Positions 15,254-38,322 of a stretch of 64,000 bases of DNA are shown here, piece after piece. The notes under the pieces were generated by a model. That model had not been told where the DNA came from. It was given only the letters and a program-made list of their open reading frames with translations, and searched no databases. Both the position numbers and the translations under genes were made by a program. Within the stretch, counting starts at the first letter, position 1. Each line of letters starts with the position of its first letter. The DNA is from Onthophagus taurus (Eukaryota; Arthropoda; Insecta; Coleoptera; Scarabaeidae), in assembly GCF_036711975.1 (NCBI RefSeq), contig NC_091966.1, positions 11,105,501 to 11,169,500 of the forward strand, in the 5' to 3' direction.

Positions 15254-18200
15254 ATGTTCGTTGAGAATAAAGTGGTTTTAGTCACGGGAGGTGCTGCAGG
15301 GATAGGATTGTGTATTGTTAAGGAATTATTAAAAAATAATGCTAAAGTATTAATTTAAAAGAAACAAAAATGTAATTAATTTTAAACTAAATGATTTCTC
15401 TTAAAGGTTTGTATTGCTGACATAAGTATTCAATTTGGACCGCAAGTCTTAAATGATTTAGAAAAAGAATATGGAAGTGGAAGATGTATTTTTTGTAAAG
15501 TGGATGTTAGTGATAAAAATGAATTTGAAGGTGAGATTAAAATTATTTATTAAAAATTAATTTGTCATGACATTTATTTCTCCTTATCTGCTTTGTATTT
15601 GTTATTACAACGTTTTTAACAATAAAGTAGGTTAAATATGGAATGTTTGCTATTTTAATGAAACAGCGTTGTTTTAGATATGAAAAAAAAACATTAATAA
15701 GGACATTCTAAGTTTCCTTTTTTTCGATAATCTTTACACCACTTGTTCGTACTCATATTTTTTGTAAAATAACTTTTTTAAATTATTTAACTATATTTAC
15801 GTTATCATTTGAGCATGTCGCCTTAATTGTTTAGACGATAGGCAACTAAACATGCAAAGCCGATTCATGTGGCACATTGCAAATATTAAATTCAAATAAT
15901 ATAGAAAACACCAAAAAGAATGTCTGAAATGAATATTGCATGTTAATGAGCACGAAACAAAAACTTATTGTTTCAAAAAGATCGCGCCACTTTAGCTGCA
16001 AAATACAAAGCTCCAAAAACATGTAATGTTGTCGATGATCTTATGCAGAATAATATTGAAGTGTTATGATCCGTTCATCATAAACTGCGAGGATTCTGAC
16101 TCGAAAGATGATAAACATGAATTCAGCGATAAACACAAAAATAGAGAAGTCCTAAATTTCGCCATCAGGCAAAATATGATCATCAACTCAGCATTTGTTC
16201 CACATAAAAGAATACATAAGGCAACATGGATTATGCTAGACAGTCAGGCCCGTCCACAATTTTAATTTTCCGAAAAATGCAGAAAAAAGACTTTTTTCTG
16301 CCAATTTTTACAAACGAACTATGAATAATTTAGAACAAGTGCACAGACGTTGGCTAGTTTACAGCAAAAGTACTGATAAAGCATTTTGTTTTTGCTGCAA
16401 ATTGCATGGAAATGACACTGGATCTCAATTAGTTAACGATGGGTATAGTGATTGGGCACACTTGGGCAGAGCTCTTGATAATCACGAAAAATCAGCAATT
16501 CATGGTCAGAATGTTGGAAAGTGGACGGATTGTGAGATACGTTTAGCTGAAGCGTCCACTTGAGCAGTTCGTTACCAGATTAAGGAAGTACACAATGCTT
16601 TAGAAAAAGTAGTAGAAGCGACTGACGACCCTAAAGCAAAAAGTGAAGCTCAATCCCTTGTCAATCAACTAAGGAGTTATGAGTTTTTAGTAGCATTAGC
16701 TATTTGATATGACGTGCTCTTTGCTATAAATAGTGTAAGCAAAAACTTGCAGGCTGAAAAAATGCACTTAGGCATGGCATCGCAGTTGCTTCAAGGACTG
16801 GTACAGTTTTTTGAGCAATTTAGAAATGAACTTTTGGACATAGAGCCAAAGTTTCAAATAGTCAAGCAAAGGAAGAAACGAAAAATGTTTCATTACAAAG
16901 AAGAAGATGAGCATGTTTTAGAATCTGCTGAACAAATGTTCAAGGTTGAGTATTTTTATTATATTGTAGATTGTATATTACAGTCCCTTTCAAGAAGATT
17001 TCAACAAATTGCCAGTTACAACAGTATGTTTGGATTCTTGTACAGTGTAAAAGAATTAAAATCAATTGAACAAGGTCAATTGTTGGAAAAGTGCAAAGCC
17101 CTAGAAGCCTCTTTAAGTTTTGAAGGGCAAAAGGATATCTGTGGAAATGATTTGTTCACAGAACTAAAAGTTCTTCGTGGTCCACTTCCCGCTGAAGTTG
17201 AAACAGCTGCTGGCGTGTTAAGATTTATGAACAGAATACAAAATCCATATCCCAACACGTTCATTGCCTACAGCATTTTACTTACTATTGCAGTGACTGT
17301 TGCTAGCGCAGAAAGGAGTTTTTCTCGGCTAAAGTTAATAAAGACTTACCTAAGATCATCAATGAGCCAAGAAAGGTTAACGTCTTTGGCAACATTATCG
17401 ATAGAAGCAGACACAACGGCCAAAGTCAATTTTGAAGAAATTATTGACGACTTCGCTGGATTAAAAGCAAGAAAAATTAAGTTTAAGTAAGAATATTATT
17501 GTTAAAGCAATACTTTTCAGCGGATTTAAATTTGTTTTAGTTTAGTATTAATAAGAATAAAAAAAAAATTAATGACAAACTATTTAGCTGTTCTTTTTTA
17601 ACTGAGATAAGGCACGATGGAGGTGGGAAAGAACTATGATGGTAGGTAGTTTATGAAAAAGAAGAGTCGAGAGCTATTTACCTACATAAAGGCCCCGCAA
17701 AACTATTTTGCACCAGGCCCCGCATTTGCTAAAGACGGCTCTGTAGACAGTGGCGTGGCACTCGAAAAACAGCATCGAGCACTCTATACGTTAAAAGCAG
17801 AAGGACTCGCATCACCTATTACTTACGTTAAAGAAGATTTAGATTCCGAATTACAAGGAAAACCCCACTCAGACAGAAGAAGGGCTGAACATTGAGAAGA
17901 TAAGGCAGATGGAGGTGAGATGAATTGATACGTTGTTTATTCATTATTGCATAAATGACAACATTAAAATTTTTATAAAATACAACATGTATAGACGTTT
18001 TTTATGAAGTGAATTACACATTTACTATACATTGTTACGTTCTGTACACATAAATTTGCTGTTTATCGCGCATTTAAACCATGCCGAAAGAAATTATTCC
18101 AAGACTGAACACAAACATCTTTTCATGCTATGGGGATTGCAAAAATTGCAAGATGTTATCTAGAAAAAACAACGTATGTTGTAATTACTGATTACCATTC

Positions 18201-19813
18201 ATTAGTATGGCTGAATAATCTTGAAAATCCTCAAGGAAGATTGGATAGGGGGGCTATTTATCTACAACAATTTGATTACGCTTCCATCTGCCGTCATGAT
18301 TGAGATCAGGTACTACTTGATACTGTGTCTTCTTTAAAGTTTCCTAAACGGACACTGAAAATGGTAATCTTGATAAATGTATTCAATCTGATTTTATAGA
18401 TTTTGCACGGCGCCGTTAAAAATTAAACGATATTTTTGTTGTGGTGTTGTCACTATGAACGGCTTAATCTTTTAGGTTACTAATGTTAAAAAAAAATACA
18501 TTAAGATTGATAAGAAAATTTATTTAAGTTTATAAGTGTTGCAAGATATCCCTTATGTTGTCGAAATACAGAATGACATTATAATTTTCGAAAAAGAGAT
18601 GCGCAGCATGTTATTGGAGATTTAGGTAGAATGTATCAAATTAAAAAAGATTAGGAGCAAAAAAAGTACTTCATTCATTACTTTTCAATGGGAGCAGAGC
18701 GGATTTATCCAACCCAACCCTTATTTTATATTACAATATTAAGCGAACGGTGTACATCATAGAGCAAAATTATTCTTTATTTTATTTTCAAGTAACTTTT
18801 GTCGTCCTTTCATTCTTGTTTTTTTTTTTTGAAATTATAGCGTAGCATAACAAAAATTGTGAGTCAATATGAAAATAATGTTTTAAATCTAATTTTGTCA
18901 AAACGTAATAATCAGTTAAAAACCTAAAATTGTTCTATGCTCGTTATTATAGATTGACACTAATTCTTTTGGAATAAATCTTGCTATTTGAGAATAAAAG
19001 TATTAAAAAACATCTTTGTGATAGGATGAAAAACTCTAGTATTTATAATTTTAATATAAAATAAAAATTGTACAATATTGATTTATATGTTATTTATAAA
19101 AGATGTTTTGTTTCAATTTTTGTAGCTGCAATGAAGAAGACCGTCGAAGAATTTGGTAATTTCGATATTTTAATAAACAACGCTGGAATTCTTGATGACT
19201 CCATATGGGAAAGAGAAATTGAAATCAATTTGGTAAAAAACAAATAATATTTAAATTCCTAATAAATTTTAAAAAAATTTTAGAAAGGTGCTATAAATGG
19301 TTGTATTTTGGCAATGGAACACTACCTTCCCAAATATAGAAGTACCCAAAAAGCTGTAATAGTTAATTTGGCATCAAATTTGGGAATAGAAAAACCTGGT
19401 GCACTTCCAGTTTATAGCGCGACAAAATCCGCTCTCATTGCATTTAGCAAATCTATATCATCCGATGTTAATTATAATAGTCAAAAAGTCGATGTAATTA
19501 CTTTATGTCCCGGACCAACGGAAACTATGCTATTAGCAAATTTTACCCGAAAAGGTTTAAATGAAAGATTTAATAATTTGTTGGTTCGTTTTTTGAATGA
19601 AAGAGTTACTACGTTACCACAAAAGTATGTATTTAATATTTATTAATTTCACATAATTTACTATTTAATAATAATCGAAACATTTTTAGACCTGAATGTG
19701 TTGCTAAGAATCTTATGGAAATCTTAAACGATTGTAAAAATGGGGAGTTTTGGGAAATCGAAGATGGGATGCGAAAAGAAGTGATTATAAGAAATCAACC
19801 TGAATATAAGTGA
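15254..19813 (+). CDS. SDR1: 15-PGDH-like short-chain dehydrogenase/reductase
   Basis: Five exons: 15254-15346, 15407-15530, 19126-19232, 19284-19624 and 19690-19813. All have GT-AG junctions, together encoding 262 aa. It is a classical NAD-type SDR. It has TGGAAGIG (residues 11-18) for dinucleotide binding and Asp36 at the end of the second strand (CIADIS), which favours NAD over NADP. It also has NNAG, catalytic Ser139, and Tyr152/Lys156 in YSATK, then CPGP. The closest known type is 15-hydroxyprostaglandin dehydrogenase, a cytosolic enzyme oxidising secondary alcohols; the real substrate cannot be read from sequence. It keeps a phase-1 intron after codon 72 that most neighbours lack. That intron is 3.6 kb and stuffed with LINE, hAT and gypsy debris, while all other introns are 50-70 bases. 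The C-terminus is short (ends NQPEYK). Confidence 0.9.
15980..16264 (+). mobile_element. LINE endonuclease fragment inside SDR1 intron 2
   Basis: The plus-strand frame reads FAIRQNMIINSAFVPHKRIH, then KATWIML. In intact LINEs this is the endonuclease stretch NMVIxSTFFPHKxIHKATWxSPDG. Only about 40 residues survive. It lies directly against the hAT relic. Confidence 0.6.
16265..17900 (+). mobile_element. hAT transposon (TTF/ZMYM1-like) inside SDR1 intron 2
   Basis: Frame 16321-16563 carries the TTF-type zinc finger (HRRWLVYSKSTDKAFCFCC, then a CKLHGN context and DNHEKSAIH). Frame 16714-17490 (258 codons) is the C-terminal half: VLRFMNRIQNPYPNTFIAYS, then VTVASAERSFSRLKLIKTYL and the hAT dimerisation core ending ERLTSLATLSIE. 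The catalytic middle (DUF4371/RNase-H-like region) is largely deleted between 16563 and 16714, so it is non-autonomous. The downstream non-coding tail (to about 17900) contains GGCCCCGCAAAAC twice in variant form, as at the ends of these elements. The long clean frame suggests a fairly recent insertion. Confidence 0.8.
18060..18365 (+). mobile_element. Ty3/gypsy-type LTR-retroelement fossil, RNase H part
   Basis: A broken remnant of about 300 bases in SDR1 intron 2. Short stretches (SLVWLNNLENPQGRLDR, YLQQFDYASI) match the RNase H/connection region of gypsy-type pol proteins. No LTRs, gag or integrase were seen. It is a small, old, inactive piece. Confidence 0.6.
18366..19125. other. Remainder of SDR1 intron 2
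   Basis: AT-rich intron sequence without recognised content. It ends in a normal TTTTTGTAG acceptor. Confidence 0.5.
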
Positions 19814-19876: not shown

Positions 19877-20844
19877 TTAACATTTTTTTAAAAGACCTTC
19901 CTTGTCCGGAATAATAACCTCATTTATTTCATTATTTTCTATAACCCAAATTGTTCCATTTTTTGCATCTCCAATTAATTTAATAACATATTCGGCTACC
20001 GCAGGTGCTCTAAAATAAATAGATTAAGTGGTTAAAATATTTAATAATCACAATTACTTACTCTTGCATTCCTTTTATTGAAGCCAATTGTTGTTTTATA
20101 ACATTAGAATACTTTTCAAGTGAAGTATTTGGTGTTTTATTAAATAGATCATCAAGTAATGCTGTTGCAGTGGGTCCAGGACAAATTGTAAGTATCTTAA
20201 CGTTTTTGTTGTTTAATTGTGCTAAAGATCTACTTAATCCAATTATTGCATGTTTAGTTGCTGTATAGGCAGGTAATCCTCCACAAGGTTCTATACCTAA
20301 AGTTGAAGAAATATTAACAATTACTCCCTCTGATGATGATTTATATTTTGGAATGTATTCATCCATTCCTAATAAACAACCATGTATGGACCCTTTCTAT
20401 AAAAATAAATTTAATAATAATTATATAAAATAAACTTAATAAATTTAAGTATTTACAATGTTAATATCAATTTCTTTTTCCCAAATAGCATCATTCATTA
20501 TTCCAGCATTATTTATAATTATGTCTAAATTTTTGAAAGTTTCCACGGTTTTTTTCATTCCATCATTGAGTTCTTTTTTGTTGGTAACATCAACTTTAAC
20601 AAAAATAACTCTGTTTTTACCATATTCTTTTGATAATTCCTCAACAATTTTGTGTCCCTGCTTCGCATCTAAATCAGCAATTGTAACACCCTAGAAATAA
20701 AAAATAAAATACAACAAATTAAATTCAAAATCAACTTTAAAATTTAATTACCTTTGCAGAATTTTTTAATAACTCTTTTACATAACATAAACCAATTCCA
20801 TTTGCTCCACCAGTCACAAAAGCCACTTTACCACTGATAAACAT
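19877..20844 (-). CDS. SDR2: 15-PGDH-like short-chain dehydrogenase
   Basis: Four exons on the minus strand: 20844-20752, 20690-20457, 20396-20062 and 20009-19877, encoding 264 aa. It starts MFISGKVAFVTGGANGIG (TGxxxGxG at 11-18). Asp37 in TIADLD indicates NAD use. NNAG is present. The active-site residues are Ser140 (NISST), Tyr153 and Lys157 (YTATK), followed by CPGPT. Exons 2 and 3 of SDR1/SDR9 are fused here into one 234-base exon. The tail ends EGLLKKC. It converges tail-to-tail with SDR1, with stop codons only 64 bases apart. It is closest in wording to SDR3 and SDR4 (exon 3 identical over most of IPKYKSSSEGVIVN). The substrate is unknown. Confidence 0.92.
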
Positions 20845-23171: not shown

Positions 23172-24136
23172 TCATTTTTTTAAAAGGCCTTCCTTATCCG
23201 GAATAATAACCTCATACTTTTCGTTATTTTCTAAATTCCAAATTGTTCCATTTTTTGCATCACCAATTAATTTAACAACATTTTCAGCTACAAATGGCGC
23301 TCTAAAAAAAATCATTATATATAATTTAAAAACATTTAAACCAAGTCTTACTCTTGCATTCCTTTCATTACAGCCATATAACCTTTCATAGCATCTGAAT
23401 ACTTTTCAACTGAATTATTTGGTGTTTTATCAAATAAATCTTGTAATAAAGCTGTTGCGGTTGGTCCAGGGCAAATCGTAAGTATTTTAATATTTTCGTT
23501 ATTTAATTGTGATAAAGATCTACTCAATCCTATTATTGCGTGTTTAGTAGCGGTATAAATTGGTAATCCTCCGAATGGTTCTATACCGAAAATTGATGAG
23601 ACATTAACAATTACTCCCTCTGATGATGATTTATATTTTGGAATGTATTCATCCATTGCTAATAAACAACCATGTATCGTACCTTTCTACAAAATAATAA
23701 TTATTTTAGTGTATTATAATTAAACGATTTATGTGTTTACAATGTTAATATCAATTTCTTTTTCCCAAATCGCATCATTCATTATTCCAGCATTATTTAT
23801 CAGTATATCAAAACTTTTAAAAGTTTCCACAGTTTTCTTCATTCCATTTTCGAGTTCATTTTTGTTAGTAACATCGACTTGAACAAAAATAACCTTATTA
23901 TCTCCATATTCTTTAGATAATTCCTCAACAACTTTCTCTCCACGTTTTGGATCTAAATCAGCGATTGTGACACCCTAATATGTATATAAAATAAAGATAA
24001 TTAATTATAACAAATTAAATATTCTTCATTAATATTTCCTTACCTTTGCAGAGTTTTTTAATAACTCTTTTACATAACATAATCCAATTCCATTTGCACC
24101 CCCTGTTACAAACGCCACTTTATCTTTCACAAACAT
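23172..24136 (-). CDS. SDR3: 15-PGDH-like short-chain dehydrogenase
   Basis: Four exons: 24136-24044, 23974-23741, 23686-23352 and 23301-23172, encoding 263 aa. It begins MFVKDKVAFVTGGANGIG. Asp37 (IADLD) points to NAD. NNAG, Ser140 (NVSSIFG), Tyr153/Lys157 (YTATK) and CPGPT are all present. Exon sizes 93/234/335 match SDR2 exactly. It is very close to SDR2 and SDR4, and all three lack the internal phase-1 intron of SDR1/SDR9. The tail ends EGLLKK. A TCAGTT initiator-like site lies on the minus strand about 40 bases before the ATG. Confidence 0.92.
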
Positions 24137-24191
24137 TTTAATACAATTGAATCTAATTGTAAATGTGTTCTAACTGAATTTGATTTTAAAT

Positions 24192-24202
24192 TTGCAAGTA
24201 AT
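24192..24202. promoter_or_regulatory. TTGCAAGTAAT box upstream of SDR3
   Basis: 56 bases upstream of the SDR3 start. It continues GAAAGTTAA and is followed by TACGATTAGTTGTTAAATA near 24227, which is also present upstream of SDR4. The conserved flank therefore spans about 60 bases between these two genes. Confidence 0.4.
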
Positions 24203-24394
24203 GAAAGTTAAGGTCGAGATATTCTGCTACGATTAGTTGTTAAATAAAATTGTAGTAACAAAATCAACAGTGTTATCACTCTTTCTCTTATCTGACATAA
24301 ATAACGAAGTTATCACATTCTAAAATATAATTTTGCTTTATTCAAACATTGATTAAAGGACATAAATTATTATGTTTTATAAATTTATTATAAA

Positions 24395-25362
24395 TTATTT
24401 TTTTAAGAGATCTTCTTTATCCGGAATAATAACTTCAAACACTTTGTTTTCCTCAATATTCCAAATTGTTCCAGTTTTTGCTACTTCCATCAAACGTATT
24501 ACATTTTCAGCTACAAATGATGGCCTAAAAATTATTATAGTTAATTGATCAAAATTTTACCACATAAATTTATTTTATTTACTCTTGAAATCCTTTCATT
24601 ACTTTTCTATAATGATCAATAGCATGAACATATTTCTCCAAGGAATTGTTTGGCGTTTTAAAAATTAAATCTTTTAATAAAGCCGTTGTAGTTGGACCAG
24701 GACAAATTGTAATTATTTTTATATTCTCTTTATCTAAAGGTGGTTGTGTCAACGATCTGCTCAATCCTATTACTGCATGTTTAGTTGCTGTATATATAGG
24801 TAACCCTCCGAAAGGTTCTATACCAAAAATTGATGAGATATTAATGATTACTCCTTCTGAGGATGTTTTATATTTTGGAATGAATTCATCCATTGCTAAT
24901 AAACAACCATATATGGTTCCTTTCTATAAGAAATTAAATATATTTTACTTTAATAAAGAAAAATATTTTATATTTACGATGTTAATATCAATTTGTTTTT
25001 CCCAAATCGCATCATTCATTACTCCAGCGTTATTTATCATTATATCAAAATTTTTGAAAATTTCCACTGTTTTTTTCATTCCATCTTCAACTTCTTTTTT
25101 ATTAGTAACATCTAATTTAACAAAAATGACCCTATTATTCCCATATTCTTTAGATAATTCATCAACAACTTCCTCTCCTCGTTTTGGATCTAAATCACCT
25201 ATTGTAACACCCTAAAATTTACAAAGAAGAAATCAAATACAATAAATTAACTAAATCCTTTAAAATTACCTTTGCAGAGTTTTTTAATAACTCTTTTACA
25301 TAACATAAACCAATTCCATTCGCGCCACCAGTCACCATAGCCACTTTACCTTTAACATACAT
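24395..25362 (-). CDS. SDR4: 15-PGDH-like short-chain dehydrogenase
   Basis: Four exons: 25362-25270, 25211-24978, 24923-24583 and 24524-24395, encoding 265 aa. It starts MYVKGKVAMVTGGA and keeps TGxxxGxG, Asp37, NNAG, Ser140 (NISSIFG), Tyr153/Lys157 (YTATK) and CPGPT. Exon 3 is 341 bases, because two codons are inserted in SLTQPPLDKENIK, an indel shared with the SDR5 pseudogene and not with SDR2/3. It lies tandem to SDR3 with about 260 bases between stop and upstream start. It probably oxidises a small hydrophobic alcohol with NAD; the substrate is not predictable. Confidence 0.92.
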
Positions 25363-25450
25363 TTTCACTAAAGTATTGTTGTGTTAAGGAAAATTAATGT
25401 TTATAAAGTGTATTTTAATTAAATTTTGCTATCCTTAAATAGGTTTAAAG

Positions 25451-25461
25451 TTGCAAGTAAT
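25451..25461. promoter_or_regulatory. TTGCAAGTAAT box upstream of SDR4
   Basis: 89 bases upstream of the SDR4 start. It continues GAAGGTTAA, and TTACGATTAGTTGTTAAATA follows near 25487, as in SDR3. Confidence 0.4.
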
Positions 25462-25639
25462 GAAGGTTAAACTAAAGTCATTTTATTACGATTAGTTGTT
25501 AAATATAAACGAACTAGTAAAGTCGACACTCTTATATACACAACATATCAGATAAGGAAAAAATGCTTTTATCTGTGTATAATAACATAGTTAACTAACA
25601 TGTTAGATTTATGTTTACATAAATTATTGCAAATTATTA

Positions 25640-26325
25640 TTATCTTTTCAAGAGTTTCAAAAACTTTGCTTTCCTCTATACTCCAAATTGTTCCAGATTT
25701 TGCTACGTATCACTTTTCAGCTACAAATGAGTCTCTACATATATTTTTATAGAATAAGTACATAAATTTAAGTTTAAAATTAAGTTTCATTAAGTCACTT
25801 AAGTTTTCTTTATCTAAAGGTGGTTGTGTTAAAAATATAAAAATCTACTCAATCGTATTATTGCGTGTTTAGTTGCTAGATTCTACACCAAGAAGTGATG
25901 ACATATTAATAATTACTGCTTCTGAAGATGATTTATATTTTGGAATGAATTCATCCATAAAATAAACAACATACACGGTACCTTTTTATAAAAATAATTT
26001 TATAACACCTTAATAAAACAAATTTTTGTTTTTATTTACAATGTTAATATCAATTTTATTTTCCCAAATAAAATCATTCATTATTCCTGCGTTATTTATC
26101 ATTATGTCGAAATTCTTGAAAGTTTCCACTGTTTTTTTCATTCCATCTAACAAAAAAAATTATTCGTTGAAGTTTATATAAAGTGGTATTTACCTTCGAG
26201 TTCCTTTTTATTTGTAACATCAACCTTAACAGAAATAACTTTATTCATTCCATATTCCTTAGATAATTCTCTTACAACCTCTTCTCCGCGTTTTGTTCCA
26301 AATCAGCAATCCTAGAAATTAGCAA
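25640..26325 (-). pseudogene. SDR5 pseudogene, sister of SDR4
   Basis: Recognisable blocks on the minus strand. An exon-2-like block (about 26315-26194 and 26146-26037) reads IADL...GEEVVRELSKEYG...VTNKKELE and MKKTVETFKNFDI. An exon-3-like block (about 25990-25800) follows, then an exon-4-like block (about 25735-25648). The first exon with the NAD-binding TGxxxGxG is missing, and one base is lost early in exon 2. Exon 3 lacks the segment with the catalytic Tyr neighbourhood and the CPGPT end. The exon-2 block is interrupted by a 48-base insert with perfect GT...TTAG ends in phase 1. It sits exactly where SDR1 and SDR9 have their extra intron. The two-codon insertion of SDR4 is also present. 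It is a decayed host gene, not a transposon. Confidence 0.8.
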
Positions 26326-29114: not shown

Positions 29115-30135
29115 ATGTCTATCGAAAATAAGGTTGCTCTTATCACCGGAGGTGCTTCTGGAATTGGATTAGAAATTACAAAAGCATTATTGAAGCATAA
29201 TGCAAAAGTAACGTTTTTATACAATTTGAAAGATATTGAAAGTTATCAACGGTACAAGTTTTTAGGGTGTGGTTATTGCTGATATCAACGATAAAAGTGG
29301 GGAAGCAATTACTAAACAATTAAATGAAGAATTCGGATTGGGAAAAATAATTTTTGTGAAAACAAACGTTGCCGATAAAGATCAATTTGAAAATGCAATG
29401 AAAAAAACTGTTGATTTTTTTAAACAGTTTGATATTTTAGTAAATAATGCTGGAATATTCAATGATAACTTATACGAAAAGGAAATTTCAATTAACTTGG
29501 TTAAGATTGTATAATTATGTAAATAATAAATGAATTTATAAGTATTTTTTAGATTGGAGTAATCCATGGGTGTCGATTAGCAATGGATACATACTTAAAA
29601 AAGTATAAATCCTCTCCAGAAGGATTAATTATTAACATTGCGTCAATACTTGGTTTGGAACATTCAGAAATGACACCCATTTACACAGCAACTAAACATG
29701 CTATAGTTGGTTTGAGCAAATCCCTTGCAACACCAATGCATTACGAAGCGACAAAAATTAAGATAATAACAATATGTCCAGGATATACGAACACATCTAT
29801 GATGATAACAACGGATGATCTCTTTTTTAATACCCGATGTTGTAGTGTTGGACGCACGTTTAGTCAAAACCTCGTCGTACAAACGTAAGAATGATACGAA
29901 TCAGTTACATAAAACTTTTAGGTAATTCCCTAATTTAGTTTTTAACATTAACATTAATTGTTGTAGTGTAGATAATATGGGTAAAGTAATAGCTCCAATT
30001 ATCAACGAAAGTGAAAATGGATCTATTTGGATTGTTGATGGTGATAATGTTTCATCAGTTTATATACCGGAAATTAAGGAATTAAAGAAAATGAAAGTAT
30101 TTTGCAATGAAATTGGTGGATTCAAAAATAACTGA
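29115..30135 (+). CDS. SDR6: 15-PGDH-like short-chain dehydrogenase
   Basis: Four exons: 29115-29207, 29266-29499, 29553-29884 and 29967-30135, encoding 275 aa. It begins MSIENKVALITGGASGIG. Asp37 (IADIND) points to NAD. NNAG (91-94), Ser140 (NIASILG), Tyr153/Lys157 (YTATK) and CPGYT are present. It belongs with SDR7 and SDR8 (shared NVADKDxFENAMKKTV, AMDTYLK and SENGSIWIVDGDNVSSVYIP). It differs at the end of exon 3 (shorter, QNLVVQT) and has an extended C-terminus (KVFCNEIGGFKNN) about ten residues beyond its sisters. It lacks the internal phase-1 intron. Confidence 0.92.
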
Positions 30136-32178: not shown

Positions 32179-33187
32179 TCAAATCGTTTTAATTTTCTTT
32201 AATTCTTGAATTGGTGGAATAAAAACTGATGCAACATTATCGCCATCAACAACCCAAATAGATCCATTTTCACCTTCAGTGATAATCGAAATCAATGCTT
32301 TACCTACATCATCCACACTAAAAGAAGTCAAAAATAAAACAACTAACTTAATCGGTGAAGTTTCTCTTTCGAATTTTGTAGAATTTTCTTTCTTTACCTT
32401 TGTAATTTTAATGAAGGCTGATCAATATATGCACGTAAAGCCTTATAACATCGATCATTAAAAAAATGTTCTTCTGGTAACGTTAAAATTGGGGTATTCG
32501 TAAATCCGGGACATATTGTAATTATTTTAACTTTTGTTGTTTCATAATGGAGTTGTGTTGAAAGTGATTTGGACAAACCAATGACTGCATGTTTAGTTGC
32601 GGTGTAAACTGGTAATGCTGGAGAACTTTGTAACCCCAGAACGGATGCAATGTTAATAATGATGCCTTCGGAAGAGGATTTATAGTCTTTTAAATATGTA
32701 TCCATAGCTAATCGACAACCATGAATTACACCGATCTAAAAAATATTAATTAATAATTGTATTATCAACGTGTTTATTCTTAATTATAAATATTAACCAA
32801 ATTAATTGAAATTTCCTTTTCGTATAAATTATCATGAAATATACCAGCGTTATTTACTAAAATATCAAAATGTTTAAAAGTTTCAACCGTCTTTTTCATT
32901 GCATTCTCAAATTGATCTTTATCAGCAACATTTGTTTTAATAAACATAACTTTTCCCTTTCCAAATTCTTCATTTAATTGTCTGGAAAGTTCTTCGCCTG
33001 TTTTGTCGTTTATGTCAGCAATGACCACACCCTATAGAATCAAAATTTAATTCAAAAATCTTTTAAATACCATAGTTTATTGTATTTTACTTACTTTAGC
33101 ATTATTCTTTAATAACGCTTTTGTAATCCCTAATCCAATCCCTGAAGCACCCCCGGTTACAAGAACAACTTTCTTTTCGACAGACAT
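32179..33187 (-). CDS. SDR7: 15-PGDH-like short-chain dehydrogenase
   Basis: Four exons on the minus strand: 33187-33095, 33031-32798, 32735-32398 and 32317-32179, encoding 267 aa. It starts MSVEKKVVLVTGGASGIG. Asp37 (VIADIND), NNAG, Ser140 (NIASVLG), Tyr153/Lys157 (YTATK) and CPGFT are present. The C-terminal part reads ENGSIWVVDGDNVASVFIPP and ends KIKTI. Exon sizes 93/234/338/139 are identical to SDR8, although the gene is inverted relative to it. Like SDR6 and SDR8, it lacks the internal phase-1 intron. Confidence 0.92.
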
Positions 33188-35988: not shown

Positions 35989-37000
35989 ATGTCTATAGAA
36001 AATAAAGTTGCTCTTGTAACCGGTGGTGCTTCTGGAATTGGACTAGAAATTACCAAAGCATTATTGAAAAATAATGCAAAAGTAACTTGGAAAGTCTATT
36101 TTAAATATTGAATTAATATTCCGTTGTTTAGGGTGTGGTTATTGCTGACGTCAATGATAAGCGAGGAGAGGAAATTACTAAACGATTAAATGAAGAGTTT
36201 GGAGCAGGAAAAATCGTTTTTGTTAAAACTAACGTCGCTGATAAAGACGAATTTGAGAACGCAATGAAGAAAACCGTTGAAACTTTTAAACACTTTGATA
36301 TTTTAGTGAATAACGCTGGTATAATAAATGATAACTTATATGAAAAAGAAGTTTCAATTAATCTGGTTAATATTTAAAATTAGGAATAAAAATATAATTA
36401 TTAATATTTTTTTTTAGATTGGTGTTATACACGGTTGCCGATTAGCAATGGACACATATTTAAAAAATTTTAAATCGTCTCCTGAAGGATTAATTATTAA
36501 CATTGCATCCATTCTAGGTTTAGAAGGTTCTTCAACACTACCTTTTTATAGCGCAACAAAACATGCAGTGATTGGTTTAAGCAAATCCCTTTCAACGCAA
36601 CTACATTATGAAACAACCAAGGTTAAAATAATTACAATATGTCCCGGATTTACGAATACACCACTTTTAACATTATCAGATGAACATTTATTAAATTATC
36701 AATGTTATAGTGCTTTATGCACATTTATTAAAGATCCCTCGCTAGTACTACAAAGGTAATGTTTGATATATTTTCATTAAAAACAAATTATTTTCTACAA
36801 ACTTGAAGATAAAGTTGTCCATCACCTTAATGACAACTAATCAATTCTTATTTTGTTTTAGTGTGGCAAATATAAGTAAAGCCATCATCCCTATTATTAA
36901 TGAAGGTGAAAATGGATCTTTTTGGGTTATCGATGGTGATAATGTCTCGTCGGTATATATTCCAGAAATAAAAGAATTAAAGAAACTTAAAATAAATTAA
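35989..37000 (+). CDS. SDR8: 15-PGDH-like short-chain dehydrogenase
   Basis: Four exons: 35989-36081, 36132-36365, 36418-36755 and 36862-37000, encoding 267 aa. It starts MSIENKVALVTGGASGIG. Asp37 (VIADVND), NNAG 91-94, Ser140 (NIASILG), Tyr153/Lys157 (YSATK) and CPGFT are present. It ends KELKKLKIN. Splice sites are clean and introns are 50-106 bases. It is nearest to SDR6 and SDR7. SDR9 follows in the same direction 150 bases after the stop, an unusually tight spacing. Confidence 0.93.
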
Positions 37001-37149: not shown

Positions 37150-38322
37150 ATGGCTCTTCCATTGAGTACCTTATTATTAAAACAATATTCTCTCCTAAAA
37201 CCTTTAATAATAACAACTAAACGTAAAAATTCTCAGGGTTGTAATCGTGTAATGACTCCACCAGATGATACTTTAGCCGATAAAGTTGCTCATATAACAG
37301 GAGCAGCTTCCGGTATTGGACTCGTTATTGCTCGAGAATTTCTAAAGCACGGAATAAAAGTTAATAATTATCAAAAATAATCTTATTTCAAGATCTGTAA
37401 ATTGGAATTTTTAAACCTTTTAAATTTTTCCAGGGAGTAGCAATTTCTGATATAGACGGAGCCCAAGGTGGTGCTACATTATTACAATTACAAAAGGAAT
37501 TTGGAGCAAATAGAGTGATTTTTACTCAAACTGATGTATCTTGCATGAGTGAATTTGATGGTAAATAAATTTTCTTCTCAATTATTATTAACAGTAATAA
37601 ATATAATTTGTAGACGCTTTACAAGTCACAGTAGATAAATTTGAAGGTTTTGATATTCTCGTAAATAACGCTGGAATGTTAGATGATAAACAATGGGAAA
37701 GAACAATTCAAGTCAACTTGGTAACATTTTTATTAAGTAATTGAAATACTTCTAAATTTTTTAAAATTTAGGTCGGTGTTATTAACGGTTGTATTTTGGC
37801 AATGGAAAAATATATTCCAAAATATAAATGTGGCGATGAAGGAATCGTAATGAATATTGCATCTATAGCTGGATTACAAAAAATTCCAACCATACCAGTA
37901 TACGTATCAACGAAACATGCTTTGATTGGTTTAGGAAAATGTCTTTCAGCTGATTTTCACTATGCAGAAACCAAATCTAAAATAATCACAATTTGTCCTG
38001 GTTATTATGCCACCCCATTAACATCAGATTATTTCCGTGGTAGAACATTGTATAAACGATCCGAACAAGTTATTTATGATACTATGTCAAAACCTGATTT
38101 TCCAATGCAAAAGTAAAGCAATTATATAAATAATATGAACCAAAAATTGATTAATGAATTTTTAGGGTTGATATTTTTGGTAAATCGATCGTTACTATTA
38201 TAGAAAGAAGTAAAAATGGTTCTTTTTGGGTTATTGATAAAGATAATGTATCTGAAGTGTATTTACCAGTAATTAAAGATTTGAAGAAATTACAAAAAAT
38301 TGATGTATGTGAGATGAATTAA
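37150..38322 (+). CDS. SDR9: 15-PGDH-like dehydrogenase with N-terminal extension
   Basis: Five exons: 37150-37359, 37434-37560, 37614-37720, 37772-38112 and 38166-38322, encoding 313 aa. The first exon is 210 bases instead of 93. It adds about 39 residues rich in Leu, Lys, Arg and Thr without acidic residues until DD (MALPLSTLLLKQYSLLKP, ITTKRKNSQG), which resembles a mitochondrial presequence. A second in-frame Met (residue 36, MTPPDD) would give a normal-length enzyme. The core has TGAASGIG, Asp76 (ISDID), NNAG, Ser179, Tyr192/Lys196 (YVSTK) and CPGYY. It keeps the same phase-1 internal intron as SDR1. It is the most divergent member together with SDR1. Confidence 0.9.

Follow-up and report, generated by a model that had tools for sequence, protein, structure and literature searches.

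How does a broken gene come to carry an intron at a site that an intact neighbour, grouped with it in whole-length trees, reads straight through? The question is raised by SDR5 and SDR4, two of the nine short-chain dehydrogenase gene copies that lie at 15.2-38.3 kb of the window (the whole 64-kb stretch of DNA analysed, C1:11105501-11169500 of a searched genome of 290.8 Mb in 33 contigs) and form the tandem array SDR1-SDR9. Gene models giving the exon coordinates and intron borders cover eight copies and the SDR5 remains (Table 1). The Pfam adh_short profile (PF00106) matched both of the products scanned, SDR4 at 150.9 bits and SDR1 at 149.2 bits (cut-off 26.6). Sequence matches of SDR9 include chains of 15-hydroxyprostaglandin dehydrogenase [NAD+] (PDB 2gdz, E 1.5e-34; 8cvn, E 1.4e-34), photoreceptor dehydrogenase (5ilg, E 8.5e-32) and alcohol dehydrogenase (1a4u, E 1.8e-24), presumably human and fruit-fly proteins. 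The array products thus appear to resemble 15-hydroxyprostaglandin dehydrogenase. The likeness to these three known dehydrogenases lies in the sequence of SDR9 and in the adh_short domain of SDR1 and SDR4; unlike them, the array copy SDR5 is a broken gene. A tRNA scan of the 64-kb window found none, and a search of a phage sequence collection with the SDR5 stretch gave no match. Among the papers listed by literature searches, none was recognised as dealing with this array or with tandem arrays of 15-PGDH in beetles, which is no proof that such work is absent.

Table 1. Features of the SDR array in window coordinates
Feature	Position	Strand	Remarks
SDR1 intron b	15531..19125	+	3595 bp; site and phase as in SDR5; holds hAT transposase remnants
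SDR2	19877..20844	-	gene model; exon 2 fused, 20457-20690
SDR3	23172..24136	-	gene model; exon 2 fused, 23741-23974
Spacer SDR4-SDR3	24137..24394	-	258 bp
SDR4 3' part	24395..24923	-	exon 3 24583-24923, exon 4 24395-24524; nearest copy SDR5
SDR4 5' part	24978..25362	-	exon 1 25270-25362, intron 1, fused exon 2 24978-25211; without intron b; as near to SDR2 and SDR3 as SDR2 is to SDR3
Spacer SDR5-SDR4	25363..25643	-	281 bp; homologous to SDR4-SDR3 spacer
SDR5 exon 4 remnant	25644..25733	-	deletions and in-frame stop
SDR5 exon 3 remnant	25803..25985	-	several deletions, 3' part missing
SDR5 intron 2	25986..26039	-	54 bp; AA in place of the AG acceptor of other copies
SDR5 exon 2b	26040..26146	-	107 bp, frame open
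SDR5 putative retained intron	26147..26193	-	47 bp, GTAAAT...TTTGTTAG, phase 1
SDR5 exon 2a remnant	26194..26311	-	first ~8 bp lost, one 1-bp deletion
SDR6 gene span	29115..30135		
SDR6 exon 2	29266..29499	+	fused, without intron b
SDR7 gene span	32179..33187		
SDR7 exon 2	32798..33031	-	fused, without intron b
SDR8 gene span	35989..37000		
SDR8 exon 2	36132..36365	+	fused, without intron b
SDR9 intron b	37561..37613	+	53 bp; site and phase as in SDR5

SDR5 is a pseudogene, as a first, sequence-only reading of the locus had stated. Exon 2 has lost its start (~8 bases) and one further base, the exon 3 acceptor reads AA, several deletions follow and exon 4 holds a stop; neither exon 1 nor the upstream region was found in the 2.6 kb upstream, where matches were at chance level only. 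The remaining exon 2 is split by an insert that starts with GTAAAT and ends with TTTTTTTTGTTAG (window 26193 down to 26147). The insert is real, with a length of 47 bp instead of the 48 first counted, and its GT and TTAG ends and its phase 1 position, one base after the GAA of Glu-Leu-Glu (GAA|G.AT), are as first described. It occupies the same alignment column, in the same phase, as the extra introns of SDR1 (exon ends at 15530) and SDR9 (exon ends at 37560), in agreement with the initial claim. The 234-bp exon 2 runs uninterrupted across this site in SDR2, 3, 4, 6, 7 and 8, the intron-less state of SDR4 having been correctly noted. Simple arithmetic puts the chance of an agreeing position (1 of about 234) combined with GT/AG ends (1 of 256) at about 2 in 100,000. 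The GT...AG ends, the T-rich 3' end and the 47-bp length fit a spliceosomal intron, short introns elsewhere in the intact copies of the array measuring 50-106 bp. The insert is most probably a retained ancestral spliceosomal intron shared with SDR1 and SDR9 (intron b).

A wider survey of the family supports this identification. Further copies were found by whole-genome search with SDR3 and SDR9, and nine outside the window have readable exons, two of them read in part (L081 apart from exon 4, and the L025 upstream copy apart from exon 1). The family count of 18 thus covers the nine window copies and these nine others, among the best-scoring genome matches; more distant SDR matches (e.g. C2:18997955, C5:1812619, C1:20654155 and C1:9677816) were left out. 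As read from translations and DNA, intron b is present in five of the nine outside copies (L025 upstream copy, L028, L029, L078 and L081) and absent from four (L025 main copy, L038/L041, L040 and L047), which makes 8 copies with it and 10 lacking it among the 18. In a protein tree, which SDR5 entered only where alignable and for which four distant dehydrogenases from this genome formed the outgroup, SDR1 groups with SDR2-5 (support 92) and SDR9 with SDR6-8 (support 90). On this tree, therefore, the loss of intron b in SDR6-8 is separate from that in SDR2-4. A loss-only model gives 5 losses on the consensus tree with SDR4 counted as one, and 4 (28 trees), 5 (769), 6 (202) or 7 (1) over 1000 bootstrap trees.

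The insert could also have entered the pseudogene by chance or represent an intron newly gained at this site, an origin regarded as highly improbable. Short AT-rich introns leave no usable match between copies that would prove descent, a general expectation rather than a computation on intron b, and under unweighted parsimony presence and absence at the root are tied on the consensus tree (5 changes each) and in 607 of the 1000 bootstrap trees, with 202 favouring presence and 191 absence. However, such an origin has to meet the same column, the same phase and the GT...AG ends, in addition to seven other copies read with an intron there, including SDR1 from the sister lineage of SDR2-5. With gains costed at three times losses, intron b is ancestral in 992 of the 1000 trees and tied in 8. 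Intron b thus appears to be old and often lost in the family, which bears out the initial view of SDR5 as the keeper of an ancestral intron.

Comparisons of the gene parts showed that the relationship between SDR4 and SDR5 changes along their length. Site counts were taken over columns with a base in every compared copy. The sites of exons 3-4 (259 in all) that are informative for SDR2-5 separate SDR4+SDR5 from SDR2+SDR3 in 19 cases vs. 1 and 1 for the other splits; exon 2 (225 sites) has 3 such sites vs. 3 and 1. The two sets of split counts differ (Fisher P=0.021), and singletons per site are alike (40/225 in exon 2 and 51/259 in exons 3-4). SDR5 differs from SDR2, 3 and 4 at 40, 40 and 39 of the 225 sites of exon 2, indicating that SDR4 is no closer to SDR5 than SDR2 or SDR3 is there, and at 64/259, 55/259 and 37/265 sites of exons 3-4. 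In exon 1, the intact copies are about equally far apart (SDR2-SDR3 12, SDR2-SDR4 10 and SDR3-SDR4 12 differences of 93). The description of SDR4 and SDR5 as sisters thus has support from the 3' half only; SDR5 would be the closest relative of SDR4 only in the 3' half. Introns 1, 2 and 3 were also tried as relationship markers and set aside, their pairwise z-scores among SDR2-5 (0.3 to 3.9) not being decisive.

With kappa set to 3 and alpha to 0.9, maximum likelihood puts the internal branch at 0.012 in exon 2 (upper bound about 0.05 off the profile) vs. 0.125 in exons 3-4, and one common value costs about 5.4 log units (best grid point, simple arithmetic). Most of this difference comes from exon 4, which holds 13 of the 19 SDR4+SDR5 sites; the branch of exon 3 alone is 0.056, a difference from exon 2 that is not significant (about 1.2 log units). 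None of 2000 alignments simulated on the exon 3-4 tree, its branches rescaled to fit exon 2, had as few as three SDR4+SDR5 sites (mean 15.9), under a null that is strict in keeping the branch proportions fixed.

Synonymous sites should not be driven by selection on the protein. The synonymous divergences, all with wide and overlapping intervals, are 0.34 for SDR3-SDR4 and 0.81 for SDR4-SDR5 in exon 2, and 0.50 and 0.30, respectively, in the exon 3-4 codons covered by SDR5; over the full exons 3-4 SDR4 stands at 0.64 from SDR3 and 0.77 from SDR2, and SDR2-SDR3 is steady at 0.49 in exons 1-2 and 0.43 in exons 3-4. The values of 0.34 and 0.30 at the two proposed joins agree, as a single event predicts. 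Codon permutation of the interaction at synonymous sites gave a one-sided P of 0.0047 (two-sided 0.008) with SDR3 as the partner and 0.015 (0.029) with SDR2. The interaction is weaker on all sites (SDR3, one-sided 0.028 and two-sided 0.048; SDR2, 0.041 and 0.074) and absent on nonsynonymous sites (one-sided 0.33 for SDR3 and 0.26 for SDR2). A variant of the interaction test without SDR5 gave a one-sided P of 0.037. Sites unique to SDR4 make up 17/55 in exons 1-2 vs. 65/128 in exons 3-4 (P=0.015); with the other members of the SDR2-4 trio as the odd copy, P is 0.039 for SDR3 and 0.50 for SDR2. A max-chi-square scan of SDR2-4 located the break within exon 3, at alignment columns 264-270 (permutation P=0.025), and not at intron 2.

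These patterns are best explained by a mosaic SDR4, which acquired the absence of the intron from the SDR2/3 lineage and its back from the SDR5 lineage; this reading is given somewhat better than an even chance. Counting against it are the concentration of the SDR4+SDR5 sites in exon 4, the wide synonymous intervals, the weaker interaction on all sites and its absence on nonsynonymous sites, the odd-copy result for SDR3, the break in exon 3 and, in exon 1, the slightly greater closeness of SDR4 to SDR2 than to SDR3. Of the two origins first proposed for the intron-less exon 2, a separate loss or a replacement from an intron-less neighbour, the site patterns and synonymous distances lean to the latter. 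The conflict between exon 2 and exons 3-4, for which separate exon trees were suggested at the outset, is seen in these patterns and distances but is no hard topological rejection. Among 15 rooted topologies, each taken with the best of three outgroup backbones, the ten without the SDR4+SDR5 / SDR2+SDR3 split are rejected in exons 3-4 (AU at most 0.0024); of the five with the split, the tree of two sister pairs scores highest. Exon 2 leaves 10 of the 15 unrejected at 0.05, including the exon 3-4 tree, which lies 2.1 log units below the best (AU P=0.39).

The exon 2 result leaves room for SDR4 and SDR5 as true sisters over their whole length, in which case SDR4 would have lost the intron alone and precisely, apart from SDR2/3, by cDNA-mediated or short-deletion loss. 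Whole-length trees do join the two (UFBoot 91 for DNA and 97 for protein; 976 of 1000 bootstrap trees), and intron b is prone to loss in the family, SDR4 being one of the 5 losses on the consensus tree. However, the missing SDR4+SDR5 signal of exon 2 and the synonymous flip then need an extra explanation, and one more precise loss is needed. This history is considered unlikely.

Alternatively, SDR5 might have branched before SDR2, 3 and 4, with a single loss in the SDR2-4 ancestor and with the exon 3-4 likeness of SDR4 and SDR5 mostly a retained ancestral state. The corresponding tree, with SDR5 outside (SDR4,(SDR2,SDR3)), is not rejected by all exons (dlnL 3.25, AU P=0.17) or by exons 3-4 (dlnL 3.5, AU P=0.19). 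Sites polarised by at least four of five outgroups also favour it, with 8 SDR2+SDR3-derived and only 3 SDR4+SDR5-derived in exons 3-4 (7 and 4 under a rule of SDR6-8 unanimity); exon 2 has 3 and 0. However, sites derived in SDR2+3+4 number 0 in exons 3-4 and 1 in exon 2 (1 and 1 under the SDR6-8 rule), and this tree is not the best in the whole-length analyses. Unrooted, it shows the split of the sister tree and must therefore also explain the absent internal branch of exon 2. An early SDR5 is improbable on this balance.

A length difference had been offered as further proof of sisterhood, namely a two-codon insertion unique to SDR4 and SDR5. The stretch from the codons after the SRS/SKS motif (GKC in SDR9) through CPG, counted on the proteins and the alignment, has 20 codons in SDR1, 6, 7, 8 and 9, 19 in SDR4 and 17 in SDR2/3. 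The longer form is common to SDR4 and SDR5, and the difference itself is real. However, the outgroup copies are longer still, so that a deletion in SDR2/3 is at least as cheap an explanation as an insertion in SDR4/5; the two-codon difference may be read at least as well as an SDR2/3 deletion. The marker was dropped as proof of sisterhood, its polarity being of equal cost or favouring the deletion, and it is compatible with a retained length if SDR5 branched early.

The SDR6-8 trio, in which there is no intron conflict, served as a control. The odd-copy test gave P=0.002 for SDR6, which is odd in exons 3-4 and not in exons 1-2, and 0.103 and 0.108 for the other two. The three two-sided interaction tests on all sites gave P values of 0.92, 0.005 and 0.007; restricted to synonymous sites, they gave 0.79, 0.11 and 0.04. 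This points either to widespread conversion in the array or to different relative rates of evolution in the gene halves; region-specific rates, if so, would lower the weight of the SDR4 result. The shift in relatedness between the 5' and 3' parts of SDR6-8 may mean that front-half conversion is common in the whole array. Support for a mosaic SDR4 is thus moderate, as exon 2 by itself is compatible with the exon 3-4 tree and the control trio is similarly heterogeneous.

The layout of the array is consistent with a mosaic SDR4. SDR5, SDR4 and SDR3 follow one another head to tail, all on the minus strand, and the spacers of 281 and 258 bp between them share homology along their length (z=7.0, equalled by none of 400 shuffles). 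The order SDR5, spacer, hybrid with the front of SDR3 and the back of SDR5, spacer, SDR3 is the one expected from unequal crossing-over between SDR5 and SDR3. Upstream, SDR3 and SDR4 have a 92-bp block in common (76%, E 4e-15), and matches to the SDR2 upstream region are short, one of 20 bp in SDR3 (E 0.003) and two of 29 and 22 bp in SDR4 (E 0.13). Other observations speak against such a crossover. In the 80 bp that precede its start codon, SDR4 resembles SDR2 (z=3.6) more than SDR3 (z=1.1). The match between the 3' flanks of SDR4 and SDR5 that a crossover predicts is not above chance over the first 105-115 bp past the coding ends (z=0.7, P=0.245); a shared 12-mer there is at chance level (P=0.26), and the SDR5 3' flank is closer to that of SDR3 (z=1.9, P=0.04). 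A first local match between these flanks (score 59) was discarded as spurious, because the flanks reach the upstream region of the next gene and the bases are those of the SDR3/SDR4 upstream match.

In the proposed sequence of events, the common ancestor would have carried a short intron in phase 1, interrupting the sequence that forms a single exon 2 in most window copies today, and this intron b would have been lost once in the SDR2/SDR3 lineage. SDR4 then presumably arose as, or became, a mosaic, with the upstream region, exon 1 and the intron-less exon 2 derived from the SDR2/3 lineage and exons 3-4 from that of SDR5. A hybrid in this position, flanked by SDR5 and SDR3 on one strand, could be the product of unequal crossing-over between these two copies; gene conversion with a tract covering exons 1-2 would be an alternative route of similar appearance. 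SDR5 would have kept its own exon 2 with the intron and decayed afterwards. The recombination and its breakpoint between exon 2 and exon 3 are inferred from the patterns above, as is the direction of transfer, which is not proven. The RCCX locus, in the part of its description available (PMC8362596), offers a parallel in its neighbouring copies, a hybrid between the parents and a shift in relatedness between the 5' and 3' parts. Unlike that case, as far as this part of the description goes, the marker here is the presence or absence of an intron, and the event is old and deduced from few sites.

The SDR4/SDR5 case is an ordinary kind of event in a tandem array, of well-known processes, and leaves the knowledge of intron loss unchanged. 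SDR5 serves as a fossil record, showing the past exon-intron structure of one half of a living neighbour's lineage. Where the copies of a tandem array recombine, gene trees can be misled by the presence or absence of an intron.

Repeated precise loss of the intron, initially called unusual, calls for no surprise, given its absence from 10 of the 18 copies, the 5 losses on the consensus tree and the recurrent losses in grasses. There, 93 of 883 presence/absence cases were confirmed as recurrent intron losses, with adjacent and small introns preferentially lost, according to the available part of the source (PMC4256211). In both settings one intron position was lost in several lineages; here, unlike in the grass cases of that part, the losses are among paralogues of one insect genome. 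The other introns also vary in the family, as read from sequence with L081 and the L025 upstream copy partial: intron 1 is missing in L028, L029 and L078, intron 2 in the L025 main copy, L028 and L029, and intron 3 in L029 and L078. A possible, though doubtful, extension is that the intron b site is a hot spot of loss, with ~4-7 losses in one family of one genome and more copies lacking this intron than intron 1, 2 or 3, and that the intron-less state then spread in the array by recombination, so that absence would track conversion tracts and not ancestry.

Three features of the family may be recorded besides. Within intron b of SDR1, an open reading frame at 16714-17490 matches the hAT C-terminal dimerisation domain (PF05699, E 2.2e-12), and another, at 16321-16563, matches a zinc finger with a score under the curated cut-off. 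L025 and L028 belong to a second cluster on another contig (G000:C10:4468-4473 kb), with at least three copies of the same dehydrogenase family and mixed intron content. L029 (G000:C1:6391312-6392103) is uninterrupted at the sites of introns 1, 2 and 3 and retains intron b alone, the one lost in most array copies.
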